From positions 186,001 through 250,000 of the forward strand of contig CALMSO010000026.1 of the NCBI GenBank assembly GCA_937872385.1: a stretch of 64,000 bases of DNA. Reading direction: 5' to 3'. The DNA is from an uncultured Saprospiraceae bacterium (GTDB lineage Bacteria; Bacteroidota; Bacteroidia; Chitinophagales; Saprospiraceae). Below the pieces are notes generated by a model, which worked only from the letters and a program-made list of their open reading frames with translations, was not told where the DNA came from and did not search any database. The first letter of the stretch is position 1. Each line of letters starts with the position of its first letter. Shown here in pieces: positions 4,854 to 61,846 of the stretch. The position numbers and the translations under genes are program-made.

Positions 4854-7800
4854 ATGAATTCCAATAAATTGATTGACAATATTGCCGGCTGGTTAGTTTT
4901 TGCTATCACAGCAACGGTATTCGCTATTTCAGCAGAGCCAACGGGTAGCCTTTGGGATTGCGGGGAGTTTATTCTTGGTGCTTACAAATTGCAAGTAGTG
5001 CACCCGCCCGGCGCGCCTTTGTTTGCGTTGGTGGGTCGCATGTTCACTTGGGTAGCCGATATTATCAGCGATAATCCGGAGCACATTGCTTATTCCGTAA
5101 ACTTGATGTCGGGCATTTGTACAGCAATGGCGGCTACTTTCGTCTGTTGGATAACCATCATGCTGAGCAAACTGACCTTGGTGGGCCGCGAAGGCACGCC
5201 GGATACAGCCCAAACCATCGCGCTGGCAGGGGCGGGCATCGTAGCTGGGCTGGGCACGGCTTTTGCTTCCTCTATCTGGTTTTCGGCGGTAGAAGGCGAA
5301 GTGTATGCCATGTCCACGTTCTTCACGGCGCTCACCCTCTGGGCAGTGATTAAATGGTACGCCCTGCCCGATACGCCACAGACCGATCGCTGGCTGCTGT
5401 TTGCGGTATATGCTGCTGGGCTTTCCATTGGTGTGCACCTGCTGAGCTTGCTTACTTTTCCGGCGCTGGCCTTGTTTTTCTATTTCAAAAAATACCAAAA
5501 GCATACCTTTTGGGGAATGGCTGCCGCTACTGGTATTGGCGTGGTTATTTTGGGGGTCATCCAGAAAATTATCATTGTAGGCATTCCTACACTTTGGAGC
5601 CAATTGGAGTTATTTATGGTAAATACCCTGGGGATGCCATTTCATTCCGGGTTGATTCCAACCTTGTTGATTGTAGGGGCGGCTATCTTTTTGGGGCTGC
5701 GTTATGCGCATCGCAAGGAAAGTGTGGTATTGCAATACATCATTGTGGGAGCTACTTTAGTGACGCTTGGCTTTTCTACCATCGGTGTGGTGGTGATACG
5801 CGCCAATGCGGAAACCCCTATCAATATGAACGCGCCCAGCGATGCCATGCGCTTGATCCCTTATCTGAACCGTGAGCAGTACGGCGAGCGTCCTTTGTTG
5901 CGTGGCCCCCACTTTGAGGCACAGCCTACTGGTCAGGATTATCAAAACCGCTACGGCCGGGTTGGTGATCGCTACGAAATTGTAGATTACAAACTGACGT
6001 ATAAATTCGACGATAAGGATAAAATGCTGCTGCCGCGCATGGGTGATTACACCCAAAACCGGGCTGCTTTGTACAAACAATGGATGGGGCTGGACCCCAA
6101 CAACCCACTACCACCGGGCCGCCCCACTCAAGCGGATAATATGCGCTTCATGTTGCAATATCAATTGGGCTGGATGTACTGGCGCTATTTTATGTGGAAT
6201 TTTGCGGGCAAGCAAAACGGCGATCAGGGTTTTTACCCCTGGGACAAATCCAGCGGGCACTGGCTGTCGGGCATTAAGCCTTTGGACGAGGCACGATTGT
6301 ACAATATGAGCGAGCTGCCCGATGTGAAAAGAAATGACAAAGCCCGCAATACTTATTATATGTTGCCTTTCCTGTTTGGGCTGGTAGGCTTGATTTTCCA
6401 TTTCAATCGCCGCCGCAACGATGCCCTGGGGCTGCTGGCCATGTTCATTATTACTGGCATTGGCATTATTATTTATTCTAACCAACCCCCTAATGAGCCT
6501 CGTGAGCGCGACTATGTGCTGGTGGGTTCATTTTTTACCTATTGCATCTGGATGGGTATGGCCGTGCCTGCGCTATTTGAATTGTGCCGAACCCGCCTGA
6601 ATTTTGGAGGCATTGCTCCGGCCGCGCTGGCCTCGGCCTTAGTGCTGAGCGCCCCTCTGCTGATGGGTACCCAAAACTACGACGACCACAGCCGACGCCA
6701 CCATACTGGTGCTCGTGACTACGCCAACAACTTCCTCGAATCTTGCGCACCTAATGCCATCATTTTTACCTATGGCGATAACGACACTTACCCGCTGTGG
6801 TACGCGCAAGAAGTGGAAGGCATTCGCACCGATGTGCGCGTGGTCAACCTCAGTCTGATAGCCGTGGATTGGTACATTGACCTACTTCGACGCAAAATTA
6901 ATGACTCTCCGGCCATCAACATGACTATACCAGCCGAAGCCCTGAGAGGCAGCAAGCGCAATCAGGTATTTTATGTAAGCCGCAACCAGAATGTACCCGA
7001 CCCGGCGATGTCTGTGCATGATTTTCTGCGCTTTATCGGCGAAGACCATCCGGTGGCCTCGCAGGCTGGCCGGCAGTACGAAAGCCATTATTATACGAAA
7101 AACGTTTTTATCCCAGTTAATCGCAATCAGCTCATCGCCAGCGGAGCCGTCAATCCGGCGGATTCGGCTCGCATTCCAGACCGAATTCCGCTGAATGTAA
7201 GCGGTAAAGATTTTTACCTATTAAAAGACGACCTCGCGGTGCTTGATATTATTGCATCCAATATGTGGGAGCGCCCCATTTATTTTGCGGTAACCTGCCG
7301 GCCCGAGAAATTCTTTGGCCTACAAGATTATATGAGCCTTGAAGGTCTGGCCCTGCGCATCACGCCAGTGCGTAGCAATAGCGACCCCAATTATGGCATC
7401 GTCGGTAGTGGCCGAGTGGACAGCGACGCCATTTATACCAATGTAATGGAAAAATTTCGCTGGGGTAATTTTGACAAATACGACTTATTCGTGGACAGGA
7501 GCTATGCGCCCAGCATCCAAAGTATGCAAACCATGATTCTGCGGGCTTCTGCCAATTTGATTGCCAAAACGGATACTACGCGCGCTATTGCTTTGATAGA
7601 CAAGTACTTCGAGTCGTTTCCGCATATGAATTTCCCGTACGACTATCGCACTATGTATATGCTCAACGTCTATTTCCAAGCGGATGCCTACGACAAGGCC
7701 AAACCCCATTTGGAGATATTGGCTAATGAATTAGAACAGCAGCTCGCATTTTACGATTCGCTTTCGCCCGACCTAATCAGCGGCAGCTTCCGACAGGATT

Positions 7801-22262: not shown

Positions 22263-22278
22263 TGTTCCACGTGGAACA
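22263..22278. promoter_or_regulatory. parS site, copy 1 (intergenic)
   Basis: TGTTCCACGTGGAACA, a perfect 16-bp palindrome, extended to 20 bp with AAT/ATT. This is a canonical ParB-binding parS sequence type. It lies directly against the thrC stop codon (22281-22283), about 15.4 kb from the putative origin. Confidence 0.9.
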
Positions 22279-22280
22279 TT

Positions 22281-23579
22281 TTAAAACTCCATCAGCCATT
22301 CTTTAAATACAGAAAAATCATTGGGCATAGCCGTGGCTTGCTTGGGTTTATTGCTCAATACTGCCAGCCGTTCAGGAATATCAATTGGTTCGCCCAATAT
22401 TTTTTCTACATCTTCTTTGAATTTTGCCGGATGCGCCGTTTCTAAAATAACGCCTTGCGCCTGCGGATGGGTTCGCAAATAAGCCTCCAATGCCAAGTAA
22501 CCCACTGCGCCGTGCGGATCCATTACATAGCCGAAGCGTTGCTTAATTTCACGCATCGCCGCTTCAGTAGCATCGTCGTTGAATCCATAGCCAGAAATTT
22601 CATCGCGCATAATGTTCCACGTGGAACAATACAGGTCGAGCATACGCGCAAAATTGGACGGATTGCCCACATCCATCGCATTAGAAAGCGTGCGAACGGA
22701 AGGTCGCGGGCGGTACTCGCTACTCGCCAAATAGGCAGGCACTACGTCATTGACATTGGTAGCAGCAATAAAATGATGCACTGGTAACCCCATTTTTTTA
22801 GCAAAAAGCCCGGCGGTGAGATTGCCAAAATTACCACTTGGTACACTGAAAACCATTGGAATAGTCTTGTCGGCAAGCTGTTTCCATGCTTCAAAATAGT
22901 AAAATGACTGCGGAATTAATCGAGCAATATTGATGGAATTAGCTGAACTGAGCCGTTGTCGCTGGTTCAAATCTGCGTCTAAAAAGGCTTTTTTTACCAA
23001 TGCCTGGCAATCGTCAAAGGTGCCTGATATTTCTAATGCTGTAATGTTTTCGTCCAGCGTGGTCAGTTGTTTTTCCTGCAAAAAGCTGACTTTCCCGGAA
23101 GGGTAGAGAATCACTACACGAATACCCGGCGTTTTGTAAAACCCAGCGGCCACCGCGCCCCCTGTATCGCCAGAAGTAGCCACCAAAATAGTCAGCTCGC
23201 GCTGCTCGGCTTGGTTGAAATAACTCATCAGTTGCGCCATAAAACGCGCCCCAAAATCCTTGAACGCCAGCGAAGGCCCGTGAAATAATTCCAGTACATG
23301 CCGCCGAGCATCCAATGACACCACCGGCGCCGGAAAAGTAATAGAATTTTGAATAATCCGCTGCAAATCCGTCTCAGGAATAGCACCCTGCAAAAGAGAT
23401 TGAGCAACCGTGAAAGCAATATCGGAAAATGAATAGCGCGGCAACTGCTGTATAAAATCTGGCGGCAGTAGCGGAATATGCACCGGCATGTACAGTCCGT
23501 TGTCATCCGGCAAGCCTTTGAATACGGCTTCCCGTAGCGAAACCAAATGCGATTTATTTTTGGTACTGTAAAGTTTCAT
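22281..23579 (-). CDS. thrC: Threonine synthase
   Basis: A 432-residue PLP enzyme that converts O-phosphohomoserine to threonine. The PLP lysine lies in FHGPSLAFKDFGARF, the phosphate-binding segment is ATSGDTGGAVAAGF, and PSGNFGNLTAGLFAKKMGLP follows. It has the class-I threonine synthase N-terminal start MKLYSTKN and ends normally. It is the last gene of the thrA-thrB-thrC operon, 11 bp after thrB. A parS site lies inside the coding region at 22613-22628, where it encodes C-S-T-W-N in a stretch that looks variable in the family. A second parS site touches the stop codon. Confidence 0.96.
   Translation of the reverse strand: MKLYSTKNKSHLVSLREAVFKGLPDDNGLYMPVHIPLLPPDFIQQLPRYSFSDIAFTVAQSLLQGAIPETDLQRIIQNSITFPAPVVSLDARRHVLELFHGPSLAFKDFGARFMAQLMSYFNQAEQRELTILVATSGDTGGAVAAGFYKTPGIRVVILYPSGKVSFLQEKQLTTLDENITALEISGTFDDCQALVKKAFLDADLNQRQRLSSANSINIARLIPQSFYYFEAWKQLADKTIPMVFSVPSGNFGNLTAGLFAKKMGLPVHHFIAATNVNDVVPAYLASSEYRPRPSVRTLSNAMDVGNPSNFARMLDLYCSTWNIMRDEISGYGFNDDATEAAMREIKQRFGYVMDPHGAVGYLALEAYLRTHPQAQGVILETAHPAKFKEDVEKILGEPIDIPERLAVLSNKPKQATAMPNDFSVFKEWLMEF
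22613..22628. promoter_or_regulatory. parS site, copy 2 (inside thrC)
   Basis: The same perfect TGTTCCACGTGGAACA palindrome as at 22263, 350 bp away, here within the thrC reading frame. Two exact copies of a 16-mer so close together are not expected by chance. Confidence 0.9.
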
Positions 23580-24569: not shown

Positions 24570-27026
24570 CTACGATAAATAGTTACCAATTCGGATAATT
24601 TCTGCAAAGACGCCAGCGGCCGTAACCTCCGCGCCCGCGCCCGGCCCGCGCACCACTAAGGGACGTTCCTTGTATCGCTCGGTGGTGAATACAATCATGT
24701 TGTCGCTGCCACTCAAAAAATAAAACGGATGGCTTGTGTCCACCGCTTCCAGCCCAATGCTGGCTTCGCCATTTTCTAGTTTTGCAATCATGCGCAGCGC
24801 TTTACCATTGGCGGCAGCTTCCGCGCGTAGCTGCTCAAAGGTATCATCGGCTCGTTCTAATTCTACAAAAAACTGCTCTACGCTCGTTGCTTGCTGGCAA
24901 GCTTCTGGCAGAATGTTGCGGATTTCCACCGATGCCGCTTCGAGCGGTAGCCCCGTTTCGCGGGCTAAAATGATGAGCTTGCGCCGCACGTCAATGCCGT
25001 TCAAATCAATACGCGGATCGGGTTCCGTAAAGCCGCGTTTTTTGGCTTCTTTTACAATATCGCTGAATTTTTCGCCTGCTTTGTAAGCATTAAAAATAAA
25101 AGACAAGGAACCAGACAACACTCCTTCAATTTTCAAAATCCGATCACCACTGTCAATCAAATCATTCAGGGTAGAAATCACCGGTAGCCCTGCCCCGACA
25201 TTGGTTTCGTATTGAAATTGTACCCCGCGCCGGGCGGCAATATTTTTCAAACGTTGGTATTGTAAATAAGAAGAGGACGTGGCGATTTTATTTGGTGTGG
25301 AAATCGAAATGCTGGCGTCAAGAATCTGCTCGTACCATTTGGCAACGGTTTCGCTGGCGGTGTTATCCACAAAAATCGTGTTAGAGAGGTTAAGCGCATT
25401 CATCCGATCCACAAATGCCCGCAGATTAGCCGGCTCGCCCTGTTCCTGCAGCGTCGTTTTCCAGTCGTCTAAGGCGATTCCATTTTCATCAAACAGCATC
25501 TTGCGGCTATTGGTCATGCCGACTATTCTAATTTCTAAGGAGCGCTGCTCACGCAGATAGCTTGCCTGCTGCCGAATTTGCGATAACAAAGCGCTGCCAA
25601 TCAAACCCGTGCCGGCGATAAATAAATGCAATTCTTTGGTATCGGATAGGAAAAAAGCCTCGTGCAAGGCATTGAGTGCTTTGGCCTCGTCGGGTTGATT
25701 GATGACCACGGAAATATTCAGCTCGGATGAACCCTGGGCAATAGCCACTACGTTGATGCCATTTTTGCCTAATGCCCGAAACAGACGTCCCGCAATGCCC
25801 GGCCGGTAACGCATATTTTCGCCAATAGCAGCAATTACCGACAAGTCCATTTCCATTTTTACTGGCTCAACAAGCCCCTCGCGCAGTTCGTATTCAAATT
25901 CTTTTTCAACTAACTTGCGGGCTTTTTTAGCAACATCAGGTTGTACTGCAAACGAGATGGAATGCTCGGACGAGCCTTGTGTAATGAGAATGACATTGAT
26001 GTTGGCATTGGCTAACGAAGTGAACAAGCGGGCAGCAGTGCCTGGCGCACCAAACAAACCACTACCTTGCAGCGTGAGTAAGGCAATGTTATTGATCGAA
26101 GAAATACCCTTCACAGCGCGGCCGCCGGGGTCGGATTTATCCGAAATGTGCGTACCGACGAAATCCGGATTGAATGTATTTTTAATAACAATCGGAATTT
26201 TCTTGAACAGCGCTGGCTGAATAGTAGGCGGGTAGATCACCTTGGCTCCAAAGTGCGACATTTCCATCGCTTCGGCGTAAGTCATGGTCGGAATGGTGAA
26301 GGCTTTTCGCACCTTACGCGGATCCGCGGTAAGCACGCCGTCCACATCTGTCCAGATTTCAATGACTTCTGCTCCAAGGCCCGCCGCGAGAATAGCTGCC
26401 GTATAATCCGATCCACCGCGACCCAGCGTGGTGGTCAATCCACCTTTTGCAGAAGCCACAAATCCGGTAACTATCTGTAAATCAGAATTTTGTGTATAAC
26501 ATTCTTGAATTTTCTGATTGGTCAGCTCAAAATCAACCTTGGCTGAGCCGAAGCGGTTATCGGTTTTGATAATTTTTCGCGCATCGAGATAGCTCGCATT
26601 CAATCCATGCTGCCGCAGCACATGGCTGATGATGTAAGCGGCATTGCGTTCGCCAAAGCTGAGCACATAGTCCATGGTACGGGGCGAGACCTCGCGTACC
26701 AAAAAGACACCGTACAAAATATTTTTCAGCACCTCGTGATTGTTTTCGAGTTCGGGCAGGGCCTGTTGCAATTGCGGCGGTGCGAGCAGCGTTTGCACTG
26801 TATCGAAATGACGCTGGCTGAAAGCTTCAAAGAAGGTATAATACGACTCGTCGCCAGCGGCTGCGAGGTTGGCCATTTTAATCAGAGAATCGGTGACACC
26901 GCCAAAAGCAGAAAAAACGACCGTGAATTGTTCGCCACTGAGGTAGTAGCGTTTGAGAATATCCACGACGCCTTGTATGCGTTCCGGTGTGGCTACGGAC
27001 GAGCCGCCAAATTTTAATACCTTCAT
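24570..27026 (-). CDS. thrA: Bifunctional aspartate kinase / homoserine dehydrogenase
   Basis: An 818-residue fusion catalysing the first and third steps from aspartate to threonine. The kinase half starts VLKFGGSSVATPERI and has GRGGSDYTAAILA. Tandem ACT regulatory domains lie at about 300-460 (two repeats of NVxxIxQGSSE), suggesting feedback control by threonine or a related amino acid. The dehydrogenase half begins LFIAGTGLIGSALL (NADP-binding) and contains KIEGVLSGSLSFIFN and GFTEPDPRIDLNGIDVRRKL with catalytic residues. It heads the thrABC operon. A candidate -7 box lies about 120 bp upstream; I found no threonine-rich leader peptide. Confidence 0.97.
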   Translation of the reverse strand: MKVLKFGGSSVATPERIQGVVDILKRYYLSGEQFTVVFSAFGGVTDSLIKMANLAAAGDESYYTFFEAFSQRHFDTVQTLLAPPQLQQALPELENNHEVLKNILYGVFLVREVSPRTMDYVLSFGERNAAYIISHVLRQHGLNASYLDARKIIKTDNRFGSAKVDFELTNQKIQECYTQNSDLQIVTGFVASAKGGLTTTLGRGGSDYTAAILAAGLGAEVIEIWTDVDGVLTADPRKVRKAFTIPTMTYAEAMEMSHFGAKVIYPPTIQPALFKKIPIVIKNTFNPDFVGTHISDKSDPGGRAVKGISSINNIALLTLQGSGLFGAPGTAARLFTSLANANINVILITQGSSEHSISFAVQPDVAKKARKLVEKEFEYELREGLVEPVKMEMDLSVIAAIGENMRYRPGIAGRLFRALGKNGINVVAIAQGSSELNISVVINQPDEAKALNALHEAFFLSDTKELHLFIAGTGLIGSALLSQIRQQASYLREQRSLEIRIVGMTNSRKMLFDENGIALDDWKTTLQEQGEPANLRAFVDRMNALNLSNTIFVDNTASETVAKWYEQILDASISISTPNKIATSSSYLQYQRLKNIAARRGVQFQYETNVGAGLPVISTLNDLIDSGDRILKIEGVLSGSLSFIFNAYKAGEKFSDIVKEAKKRGFTEPDPRIDLNGIDVRRKLIILARETGLPLEAASVEIRNILPEACQQATSVEQFFVELERADDTFEQLRAEAAANGKALRMIAKLENGEASIGLEAVDTSHPFYFLSGSDNMIVFTTERYKERPLVVRGPGAGAEVTAAGVFAEIIRIGNYLS

Positions 27027-36684: not shown

Positions 36685-37365
36685 TCATCCGAAAAGCCTC
36701 GGCGGCTCCGGCACCGGCTCGTGCAGTTCCGGCGAATTGTTTATCACAGAATTGACTTTCTCCGAAACCCGATATATGTTTAGAATATCATTGGGCGGTG
36801 TATTGAGCAGCATCAATACTTCGTCTGTTTCTATCTCTTCGAGCCAGCGCTGCTGTAGCTCCTGCGTAGTAAGCAGCACTGGCATCCGGTCGTGTACGGC
36901 CTGCAGCTCGCGGTTGGGCGGCGCTGTAATAATGGCAAAACTTTTCACCGCATAATCGCCTTTGTACCATACATCCCAGATGCCAGCCATCACCATCAGC
37001 TCGCCATTTTTTAGCAAAATGCGGTACGGTATTTTCCGGTCGCCTTCTTTGCGCCATTCATAAAAACTGTCTGCCACCACCCAGCAGCGCCGCTGGCGCA
37101 CCGGCAGCCGAAACGATGGTTTGGTAGCAATGCCCTCCATGCGGGCATTGATCAGTTTGCCGGTATTCTTGCCATCGTTCGACCAATGCGGAATCAGCCC
37201 CCAGGTGATGTACTGCAAGCGATTGGGCAGGTCATTGGTCACTACATAGGCGTGCTGCGTAGGCGCTACGTTAAAGTTGATACGCAAATTGCTTCCCGGT
37301 TCAATATCTCCAAGCTGGGCTTGCAATTTCTCTTTCGAGGTAGCAAAGGAAAATCGTCCACACAT
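36685..37365 (-). CDS. SRAP/HMCES-type abasic-site DNA-protein crosslinker (YedK-like)
   Basis: A 226-residue SOS-response-associated protein. The chain starts MCGRFSFA; after methionine removal Cys2 forms a thiazolidine link with abasic sites in single-stranded DNA. VVADSFYEWRKEG and AVHDRMPVLL carry the catalytic glutamate and histidine, and NARMEG is the family asparagine-arginine segment. All key residues are present and length is normal. It protects single-stranded DNA at stalled forks. It lies right beside the putative origin. Confidence 0.95.
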   Translation of the reverse strand: MCGRFSFATSKEKLQAQLGDIEPGSNLRINFNVAPTQHAYVVTNDLPNRLQYITWGLIPHWSNDGKNTGKLINARMEGIATKPSFRLPVRQRRCWVVADSFYEWRKEGDRKIPYRILLKNGELMVMAGIWDVWYKGDYAVKSFAIITAPPNRELQAVHDRMPVLLTTQELQQRWLEEIETDEVLMLLNTPPNDILNIYRVSEKVNSVINNSPELHEPVPEPPRLFG

Positions 37366-37384
37366 CTGATGTTTTTTTCCGTTC

Positions 37385-38060
37385 TAAATAATAGCGTTTT
37401 TCTAGCGTGCAAACAAAAAAATCAAACACCCGGCAAAGGTCTGGTAATCAGTTTTTTGCACAAAAAAGCCAATACTTAGTCTCCGAAGAATTTGGTTTTT
37501 AAGTACGCTTACAAAATTATAAACAATTCTCAGTGAAAAGAAAAAACAAAAATATTGCTCACGAAAAACAAAACCGTATTTCATTTTATCCACACTGCCA
37601 GGTTGTCAGTACAGCAAAAACTTTCAAAATCAGCAATTTAGAACAGCGCACTTTCCACAGGGCGGTTGGTGAAAACAGTGTAATTTGGAGCGCGTTGTGC
37701 ACATCGGCCAAGAATGCTCGGTCAGCGCACTTACATCTGTGGATAAAGTACCATTTTTATCACACCCTGCCAGCGGGTTCTGACATGATTTTGTCAAATT
37801 TAAACATTCGTGAACAAAAAACTTATCCCGTTCATATTCTTTTAACAGACTGTGGATATGTTTGAGAAGAATTGACTGAAAACGAATTGTAAGGTTGGCA
37901 AGCTGTGGATAACTTCGGCGAGTCGGGGGATAAAATTTTTAGTACTTTAGTTTTCTACATTTCCACAGCCTTATATGAGGGGGGTGATTTTTCTTTTTTA
38001 AAAAATTGAATATTAATAATAAGTAAAGCCAAAGTTAAGTCTGTGTTAAACGCTTCAAAC
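37385..38060. other. Putative chromosomal replication origin (oriC)
   Basis: A 730-bp non-coding gap. It has three perfect DnaA boxes: TTATCCACA at 37586-37594, and its complement TGTGGATAA at 37738-37746 and 37904-37912. A one-mismatch box TGTGGATAT is at 37851-37859, and weaker TTCCACA boxes lie near 37651-37659 and 37959-37967. An AT-rich tract (about 37975-38045) follows on the right, with the look of a duplex-unwinding element. A perfect 9-mer is expected about 0.5 times in 64 kb, so three within 330 bp is highly clustered. Genes on both sides mostly point away. No dnaA gene is in the window, so the call rests on the boxes, the AT tract, gene polarity and the nearby parS sites. No protein-coding frame here has family resemblance. 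Confidence 0.82.
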
Positions 38061-38097
38061 AATACATTTTGGTTGGAGCAAAAAAAATGTTTTTCGT

Positions 38098-39192
38098 ATG
38101 GAAACTATCGTCAAAGAAACACCGGTACTTGCGCCGGCTTCAGTGCGCTACCCGCGTGCGGTGCGGGTTTGGTTGGTGATCGGGTTGATTATGATTTTCG
38201 GACAAGTTGTCATTGGAGGTATCACGCGCCTGACTGGCTCTGGGTTGTCCATCACCAAATGGGAAATCGTGACGGGGACTTTGCCGCCGCTGTCGGCTGC
38301 AGGCTGGGAGCAGGAGTTTGAATTGTACAAAGCTACGCCGCAGTACCAGAAGATCAACGAGGGTATGAGTATGAAAGCTTTTCAATTTATCTACTTCTGG
38401 GAGTATTTTCACCGGCTGTGGGCGCGGAGCATGGGCTTTGTATTTTTGATCCCCTTTATCATTTTCTGGCGCAAGGGCTGGCTCGACAAGCCTCTGATGC
38501 GGCGCCTCGGCGTAGTGGTATTGCTGGCGGCTCTGGCGGCTTCCTTCGGCTGGATTATGGTGGCCAGCGGCCTCGTAGAGCGGCCCTGGGTGAATGCCTA
38601 CAAACTCACGCTGCATTTGAGCATTGCCTTTGTGGTATATAGCTACCTGCTGTGGACTACCCTGCGCGTGCTGCAGCCCCGGCCCGAAACGCCAGCCGCG
38701 CCAAGTTTGCGTACCCTCACACGCGGATTGGTGATTTTGGTTGCTCTGCAAATTGTGCTGGGTGGCATTATGTCGGGCACTAAAGCTGCTCTTTTTTACC
38801 CCACCTGGCCCGATATGAAAGGCGAGTGGATACCGGGACTATTGCTGAGCACTGCCAACTGGAATGTGGAAAACTTTGTACAATACGACGCGACGCCCTT
38901 TATGGTAGCGCTTATTCAATTTGTACACAGAAGTGTAGCTTATGTGTTGACAATCTTTGGTTTATACTTTTTTGTAAAATCTATACGAACTCCCCACATT
39001 ACCAGCGCTTTCCGTATGGGGCTGTGGCTGTTGATAACAATGTTGGTAATACAAGTTTTATTGGGCATTCTGACAGCGGTCAATAGCGTCGGTGTAATAC
39101 CTGTAGGGCTTGGCGTACTGCATCAGGCTGGCGCGCTGCTACTGCTGAGTATTGCTTTGTTTTTGAATTATCAATTTGTGGAAGACCATTGA
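38098..39192 (+). CDS. ctaA: Heme A synthase, COX15/CtaA family
   Basis: A 364-residue membrane protein with about eight helices that oxidises the C8 methyl of heme O to make heme A for aa3-type oxidases. It shows GGITRLTGSGLSITKWE near the N-terminus and the family histidines in EYFHRLWAR, LTLHLSIAF, FVHRSVAYV and GVLHQAGALLLL. The segment between helices 1 and 2 (TGTLPPLSAAGWEQEFELYKATPQY) is typical of the COX15 type found in Bacteroidota and mitochondria. It is the first gene to the right of the putative origin, so its copy number should be high in fast growth. Confidence 0.95.
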   Translation: METIVKETPVLAPASVRYPRAVRVWLVIGLIMIFGQVVIGGITRLTGSGLSITKWEIVTGTLPPLSAAGWEQEFELYKATPQYQKINEGMSMKAFQFIYFWEYFHRLWARSMGFVFLIPFIIFWRKGWLDKPLMRRLGVVVLLAALAASFGWIMVASGLVERPWVNAYKLTLHLSIAFVVYSYLLWTTLRVLQPRPETPAAPSLRTLTRGLVILVALQIVLGGIMSGTKAALFYPTWPDMKGEWIPGLLLSTANWNVENFVQYDATPFMVALIQFVHRSVAYVLTIFGLYFFVKSIRTPHITSAFRMGLWLLITMLVIQVLLGILTAVNSVGVIPVGLGVLHQAGALLLLSIALFLNYQFVEDH

Positions 39193-60196: not shown

Positions 60197-61846
60197 ATGA
60201 TGAAAACACTGAAGATTCTGCTTTATTTTCTGCTGCTACCGTTGGTGGCTTTGGCCCAAAACAGCCAACCGACCGAAGTGCCGATTACGCTTGAGCATCC
60301 TTACAATACCATCTACGCACACCTGTACTATTTGCAGGAAGACAGCTACCAGCCCGAACGGGCGGCCCGCACGCTTTATACCGAGCAGGATAGCAGCCAA
60401 CGCGAACGCTTAGCGATACAGCTCAAGCAGATTTTTGATGGGAAAGGGCTTTATGTGCAGGTCAACCAATTGCCACAAGACTCCAACTACATAGACAGTG
60501 CCACGCAACTGAATATTTACATTCCTTTTCCGAGGGATTTGCCGGAGGTGTATTTGCAAAAAATTGACGCGCAGTGGTACTATTCACCCGAAACGATTCA
60601 AAAAATACCTGAGCTCCACAAACAGGTGTATCCTTTCGGGGCAGATGTGCTGCTCAACCTCCTACCTCGCTATGGGCAGGGGCGCGTGCTCGGCCTGAAA
60701 ATCTGGCAGTACGTCGGATTGCTTATTCTATTGACCATCGGTGGCCTCATTCATTGGTTGCTCAACGGGCTGCTCTTCCCTTTGGTGGGGCGCATTACAC
60801 GCTATCGTTTGCATCCTAAGCTCGCCGACAAAGTGCTCATCCGGCAGATTACACGTACTTTTAGCGTACTGATTGTACTGCATATTTTGCGCATTTTTCT
60901 GCCGATTTTGCAATTGCCTATCCGCTCCTCAGAGTTTGCCATGCTGACCATTCGCATCCTGACCATCTTTTTTGTGGTGTGGCTGCTGTTCAAAATACTC
61001 GACGTCATCATGGTCTATGCCATGCGTTATACCGAAAAAACCGAAAGCAAATTAGACGAACAACTCATGCCCATTATTCGGCGCACCTTGCAGGCAGTGC
61101 TTATGGTGGGTGGCATCGTAGAAGCTATGCGCATGCTCGGCGTCAATGTCACCACGCTGATTGCCGGTATATCCATTGGAGGCTTAGCGCTGGCGCTGGC
61201 AGCGCAGGATATGCTCAAAAATCTCTTTGGGTCGCTCACTATTTTTTTAGACAAGCCCTTTCAAATAGGCGACTGGATTAATTTTTCTGGCGTGGATGGC
61301 ACCGTAGAAGAAGTCGGCTTTCGCTCTACGCGCGTACGTACCTTCAGCAATTCCTTGGTGTATGTGCCCAATGGCAAGCTCGCTGATATGATTGTGGATA
61401 ATTACGGGCTGCGGGTGTATCGGCGGTTTCGTACCGAAATAACCATCGCCTACGGCACACCGACCCCACTCATTGAAAAATTTGTGGAAGGACTACGCGG
61501 CATTGTAGATCAGCACCCGGATACCCGTAAGGATTTTTACCATATCTATCTCAATGCCCTCGGCAGTCATTCGCTCAATATCCTATTTTACATTTTCTTT
61601 GCTGTGCCAGACTGGCCTTCCGAGCTCAAAGCGCGCCACCAAGTGCTTATGGCAATTCTGGACTTGGCGCATGAACTCGGCGTACAGTTTGCCTTCCCTA
61701 CGCAAACCTTGCACGTAGAGACTTTTCCTGAGAAAACAGGCAATTCGCCATTGTACAATGTGCATCCGGACGAGATGAACCAGCGGCTGCGGCACTTTTT
61801 TTCTAAATACGAACAAGGTTTTGCCAAAAATGGACGAAACCCATAA
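60197..61846 (+). CDS. MscS-family mechanosensitive channel
   Basis: A 549-residue inner-membrane channel with a signal-like N-terminus (MMKTLKILLYFLLLPLVALAQ), a periplasmic part to about 170 and three to five helices. The pore helix and beta domain read ISIGGLALALAAQDMLKNLFGSLTIFLDKPFQIGDWI, then GTVEEVGFRSTRVRTFSNSLVYVPNG. The pore-lining helix follows the Gly/Ala rule of MscS. It relieves turgor on osmotic downshift. The ATG at 60197 (or the ATG at 60200) is preferred over the frame from 60098, which adds an unrelated 33 residues. The next gene starts 16 bp downstream. Confidence 0.93.
   Translation: MMKTLKILLYFLLLPLVALAQNSQPTEVPITLEHPYNTIYAHLYYLQEDSYQPERAARTLYTEQDSSQRERLAIQLKQIFDGKGLYVQVNQLPQDSNYIDSATQLNIYIPFPRDLPEVYLQKIDAQWYYSPETIQKIPELHKQVYPFGADVLLNLLPRYGQGRVLGLKIWQYVGLLILLTIGGLIHWLLNGLLFPLVGRITRYRLHPKLADKVLIRQITRTFSVLIVLHILRIFLPILQLPIRSSEFAMLTIRILTIFFVVWLLFKILDVIMVYAMRYTEKTESKLDEQLMPIIRRTLQAVLMVGGIVEAMRMLGVNVTTLIAGISIGGLALALAAQDMLKNLFGSLTIFLDKPFQIGDWINFSGVDGTVEEVGFRSTRVRTFSNSLVYVPNGKLADMIVDNYGLRVYRRFRTEITIAYGTPTPLIEKFVEGLRGIVDQHPDTRKDFYHIYLNALGSHSLNILFYIFFAVPDWPSELKARHQVLMAILDLAHELGVQFAFPTQTLHVETFPEKTGNSPLYNVHPDEMNQRLRHFFSKYEQGFAKNGRNP

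Follow-up and report, generated by a model that had tools for sequence, protein, structure and literature searches.

The 732-bp gap at 37366–38097, between a gene for an SOS response associated peptidase (SRAP) and the heme A synthase gene ctaA, is very probably the chromosomal origin of replication (oriC) of this Saprospiraceae genome, as judged from its sequence features and those of related genomes. The window, i.e., the whole stretch of DNA analysed, comprises 64,000 nucleotides and corresponds to positions 186001–250000 of contig C26 in a draft assembly of 113 contigs and 4.85 Mb. The two flanking genes are divergent and point away from the gap, as a preliminary description of this DNA had stated: SRAP (HMCES/YedK family; Pfam PF02586, E = 1e-64) occupies 36685–37365 on the minus strand, and ctaA (COX15; Pfam PF02628, E = 1e-91) occupies 38098–39192 on the plus strand. 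The assignment as oriC, also proposed in that description, is supported by a triple of DnaA boxes that is unique in the genome, the conservation of the locus, the proximity of parS sites, a switch in GC skew, and the location of dnaA elsewhere.

Perfect DnaA boxes (TTATCCACA) are located at 37586–37594 on the plus strand and at 37738–37746 and 37904–37912 on the minus strand, while a single-mismatch box (ATATCCACA) is found at 37851–37859 on the minus strand; all four lie exactly where they had been reported. Two weak boxes, TTTTCTACA and ATTTCCACA, overlap at 37951–37967 on the plus strand, and sites with two mismatches to TTATCCACA are present at 37454, 37517, 37651, 37695, 37925, 37951, and 37959. 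The genome harbors 43 perfect boxes in 4,845,050 bp, such that 0.0065 are expected in a gap of this length, compared to the three observed (P(≥3) ~4.5e-8); by chance, ~0.0003 gaps with three perfect boxes are expected per genome. The SRAP–ctaA gap is the sole site in the draft where three perfect boxes occur together, and none of 1000 Markov-1 simulations of the gap matched the real counts at 0, ≤1, or ≤2 mismatches. Only one other perfect box had been recognized in the window, at 25363 within thrA; this box is real, but another at 61393 had been overlooked. Matches to TTATNCACA with at most one mismatch are not enriched over the whole window (60 observed versus 57 expected), and it is only their clustering that is enriched. 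An Rfam scan of the 35–40 kb region gave no match, and a sigma-70 scan of the gap gave matches below the chance expectation.

The gap is intergenic and AT-rich (36% GC) and harbors two tracts of 23–30% GC that may serve in strand opening. The candidate unwinding element at 37780–37848 has ~30% GC and is the longest stretch conserved with a congener, while the alternative candidate at 37980–38059 has 23% GC and is situated between the boxes and ctaA. In a scan of the gap for DnaA-trios, runs of three trios were found only away from the strong boxes; the trio motif is degenerate, and the boxes may be species-specific.

The comparison with the congener (locus L057, 79% identity in ctaA) shows that individual boxes are swapped for others, while the cluster itself persists. 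The sites aligned with the perfect boxes at 37586 and 37738 read TTATCAACA and TTCTCCACA, respectively, whereas the boxes at 37851 and 37904 are lost. The congener thus lacks two of these four best boxes, and this turnover counts against the assignment as oriC. The longest shared blocks are 37780–37848 and about 37925–37990; the weak overlapping boxes lie in a conserved block, where the congener has TTATCTACA and TCTCCACAG.

The gene ctaA was traced in the GTDB species contigs and in 101 genomes from the order, the relatives that carry names in the database being Saprospiraceae. Boxes were counted within ≤900 bp upstream of ctaA at 45 Saprospiraceae loci, some of which are near-duplicates, so that the counts are not fully independent. 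These upstream regions contain 31 perfect boxes, whereas the flanking DNA, 358 kb in total, contains six; at least three boxes with at most one mismatch occur at 32 of the 45 loci but in only 5 of 668 control windows. In an unbiased count of 9-mers upstream of ctaA, TTATCCACA ranks first, with 31 occurrences against 0.8 expected. SRAP is divergent from ctaA across the gap at most of the related loci, and the order SRAP–gap–ctaA is widely kept. Persistence of the box cluster at the same locus in relatives, which had been set beforehand as a check, is therefore borne out across the Saprospiraceae. Alphaproteobacterial ctaA loci show no clustered boxes.

In several relatives, including Haliscomenobacter-like ones, a box group is found downstream of ctaA. 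At L061, L063, L064, L070, L073–L077, and L079, the best group of boxes is found where ctaA ends or shortly after it instead of preceding the gene, at about 6050–6350 of the locus (about 4330–4670 in L070), often with two boxes spaced by 11–12 bp. On the basis of these loci, the origin may have moved across ctaA in several relatives.

The centromere-like site parS provides an independent landmark. Exact matches to TGTTCCACGTGGAACA occur only twice in the 4.85 Mb, at 22263–22278 between thrC and mvaD and at 22613–22628 inside thrC, both 15 kb from the boxes. Most parS sites fall within the origin domain (PMC7022226), and such a placement is found here both in the window and among relatives: in all 31 genomes with parS and ctaA on one contig, a count that includes the present genome, the two are separated by 0.9–33 kb, with a median of 7.5 kb. 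In 13 further genomes, they are on separate contigs and are thus uninformative. A ParB gene is present in the genome, on a contig other than C26. Either thrC or mvaD is also found near ctaA in several relatives.

GC skew is weak in the Saprospiraceae genomes analysed. It was examined over a whole chromosome in G058, the one near-complete relative, which has a contig of 4,345,237 bp. Fourfold-site skew shows almost no leading–lagging difference in this genome (0.008), which counts against the assignment; the raw skew of forty 20-kb samples was therefore used, and every position was tried as the origin to see which one divides positive from negative skew most cleanly. Over all positions, 2.05 Mb gives the best switch (permutation p = 0.0165 for the maximum), and at the fixed position 2,052,500, none of 2000 permutations reached the observed value. 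The SRAP–ctaA gap of G058 is at 2,051,867–2,053,236 and harbors six of the 28 perfect boxes of that genome, along with many single-mismatch boxes. On contig C26, the raw cumulative skew is noisy and reaches its minimum at C26:252545, 29 kb off, which likewise counts against an origin in the gap. Fourfold sites were used there instead because of this noise; among the positions tried, their leading-minus-lagging difference peaks at the gap with a value of 0.061 (p = 0.007), and it is positive on both sides. Thus, the skew minimum anticipated in the preliminary description is recovered as a switch at this locus in the whole contig of G058 and in the fourfold sites of C26, the chromosome of the present genome being unclosed, but not as a raw minimum on C26.

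A second box cluster is present in G058, 7 kb from the main one. At G058:C1:2044953–2045370 (L125, 4953–5370), 14 DnaA boxes (three perfect and 11 with a single mismatch) are packed into 0.4 kb, and two parS sites are interspersed between these boxes. The presence of parS among the boxes makes a composite origin possible in relatives. A broader proposal, in which the Saprospiraceae origin has left dnaA and forms a composite module fixed next to ctaA and SRAP, box clusters and parS being interleaved, is rather unlikely to hold. If it did, the loading of DnaA and ParB could be physically coupled, possibly at a bipartite origin.

In many bacteria, the origin is found at dnaA, and this is the default expectation. 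However, the dnaA of the present genome is on contig C55 rather than on C26, so the predicted origin is not adjacent to it. The 15 kb of C55 surrounding dnaA contain no perfect box and one single-mismatch box only; on one side of dnaA, the contig breaks off after a few hundred bases, such that the search covers the other flank. None of the dnaA loci examined shows a box cluster. The dnaA gene of G058, at 0.6 kb, lies ~2.05 Mb from the skew switch and almost antipodal to it, and there is no perfect box within ~125 kb on either side, while in G043, dnaA and the predicted origin are more than 0.9 Mb apart on one contig. An origin at dnaA is thus rejected as largely refuted, lacking boxes and linkage to the ctaA locus; even with one flank cut off by the end of C55, it retains next to no probability. 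The earlier view that dnaA lies away from the origin locus agrees with these findings. Because G058 is numbered from dnaA, antipodal to the origin, its record begins near the expected terminus, which illustrates that records numbered in this way can start near the terminus.

Outside the SRAP–ctaA gap, two perfect boxes occur within 200 bp of each other at only two places in the genome, C24:85080/85155 and C111:2816/2979. The first comprises two palindromes, TTATCCACA facing TTTTCCACA, 75 bp apart at C24:85080–85175 (L024, 5081–5176) before nrdB-nrdA, and likely reflects control of ribonucleotide reductase by DnaA or an NrdR-like regulator. The second (C111; L025, 2816–3020) comprises two perfect and two single-mismatch boxes on one strand, directly before dnaB, and likely mediates DnaA control of the gene for the replicative helicase. 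As rival origins, both pairs were rejected, being smaller clusters that resemble DnaA-regulated promoters.

Since these two pairs are promoter-like, promoter clusters do occur in this genome, and by analogy, the boxes of the gap could belong to a DnaA-controlled promoter region of ctaA and/or SRAP, with DnaA acting as a transcription factor and no origin being present. This explanation is very improbable. The cluster in the gap is larger than those before dnaB and nrdB-nrdA, and control of a promoter leaves the parS linkage, the skew switch of G058, and the fourfold-site optimum of C26 unexplained. Moreover, ctaA and SRAP are not known as typical DnaA targets. A displaced origin has a somewhat better, though still low, probability: the true origin could be nearby, around parS at 22 kb or on the far side of ctaA, with the gap as an accessory DnaA-binding site. 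Differences of a few kilobases are beyond the resolution of skew, G058 has its second cluster with nested parS 7 kb away, and the best boxes of several relatives, most of them Haliscomenobacter-like, are grouped just downstream of ctaA. However, no box cluster occurs in the window close to parS or on the downstream side of ctaA, and the gap harbors the only cluster of the contig.

A standard DnaA-dependent oriC in the SRAP–ctaA gap, with a distant dnaA, is the simplest account. By analogy with bacterial initiation in general, DnaA made from its distant gene would bind the three strong boxes and the surrounding weaker ones and oligomerise, melting the neighboring AT-rich stretch, most likely at 37780–37848 or alternatively at 37980–38059. 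DnaB would then be loaded, and two forks would depart in opposite directions. ParB, bound to the pair of parS sites that lies 15 kb to the left, would segregate the copied origins.

The combination of SRAP, a box-filled gap, and ctaA with parS nearby offers a landmark for locating oriC in Saprospiraceae genomes, the majority of which are not closed and thus not amenable to skew analysis. With the origin locus in hand, estimates of growth rate from metagenomes (peak-to-trough ratios) could be anchored correctly, and the gap suggests a fragment for the construction of oriC plasmids in Saprospiraceae.

The gap is a new, family-wide example of the known dnaA-distant origins and not a new mechanism. 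Of the 568 chromosomes covered in the Ori-Finder paper, only 342 have an oriC that both adjoins dnaA and lies close to the skew switch, and origins away from dnaA are known, for example, beside hemE, gidA/mnmG, hemB, or dnaN (PMC2275245). No paper placing oriC beside ctaA or SRAP, or giving the Saprospiraceae origin, was found in the literature searched, DoriC being outside the search. The gap shares with the known origins of this kind the clustered TTATCCACA boxes, the AT-rich intergenic setting, the skew switch, and the distant dnaA. In contrast, its flanks are ctaA and SRAP, and dnaA is almost antipodal to it in the one complete relative.

The bipartite origin of Helicobacter pylori consists of two box clusters, oriC1 and oriC2 (see also PMC8235120). 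The two clusters ~7 kb apart in G058 resemble this arrangement, although the window has one cluster only, and the second cluster of G058 carries parS and is not beside dnaA. The basal unwinding system of Bacillus subtilis comprises two DnaA boxes and DnaA-trios (PMC8287927). The gap is similar in that several DnaA boxes adjoin AT-rich DNA; in contrast to B. subtilis, none of its strong boxes is accompanied within 16 bp by a run of at least three DnaA-trios, the motif being degenerate. Finally, the predicted origin has exact parS sites at a distance of 15 kb, and the genome carries a ParB gene, features reminiscent of the origin-proximal centromere of ParABS systems (parS TGTTNCACGTGNAACA; PMC7022226), with the differences that parB is here on another contig and that one parS is inside thrC.
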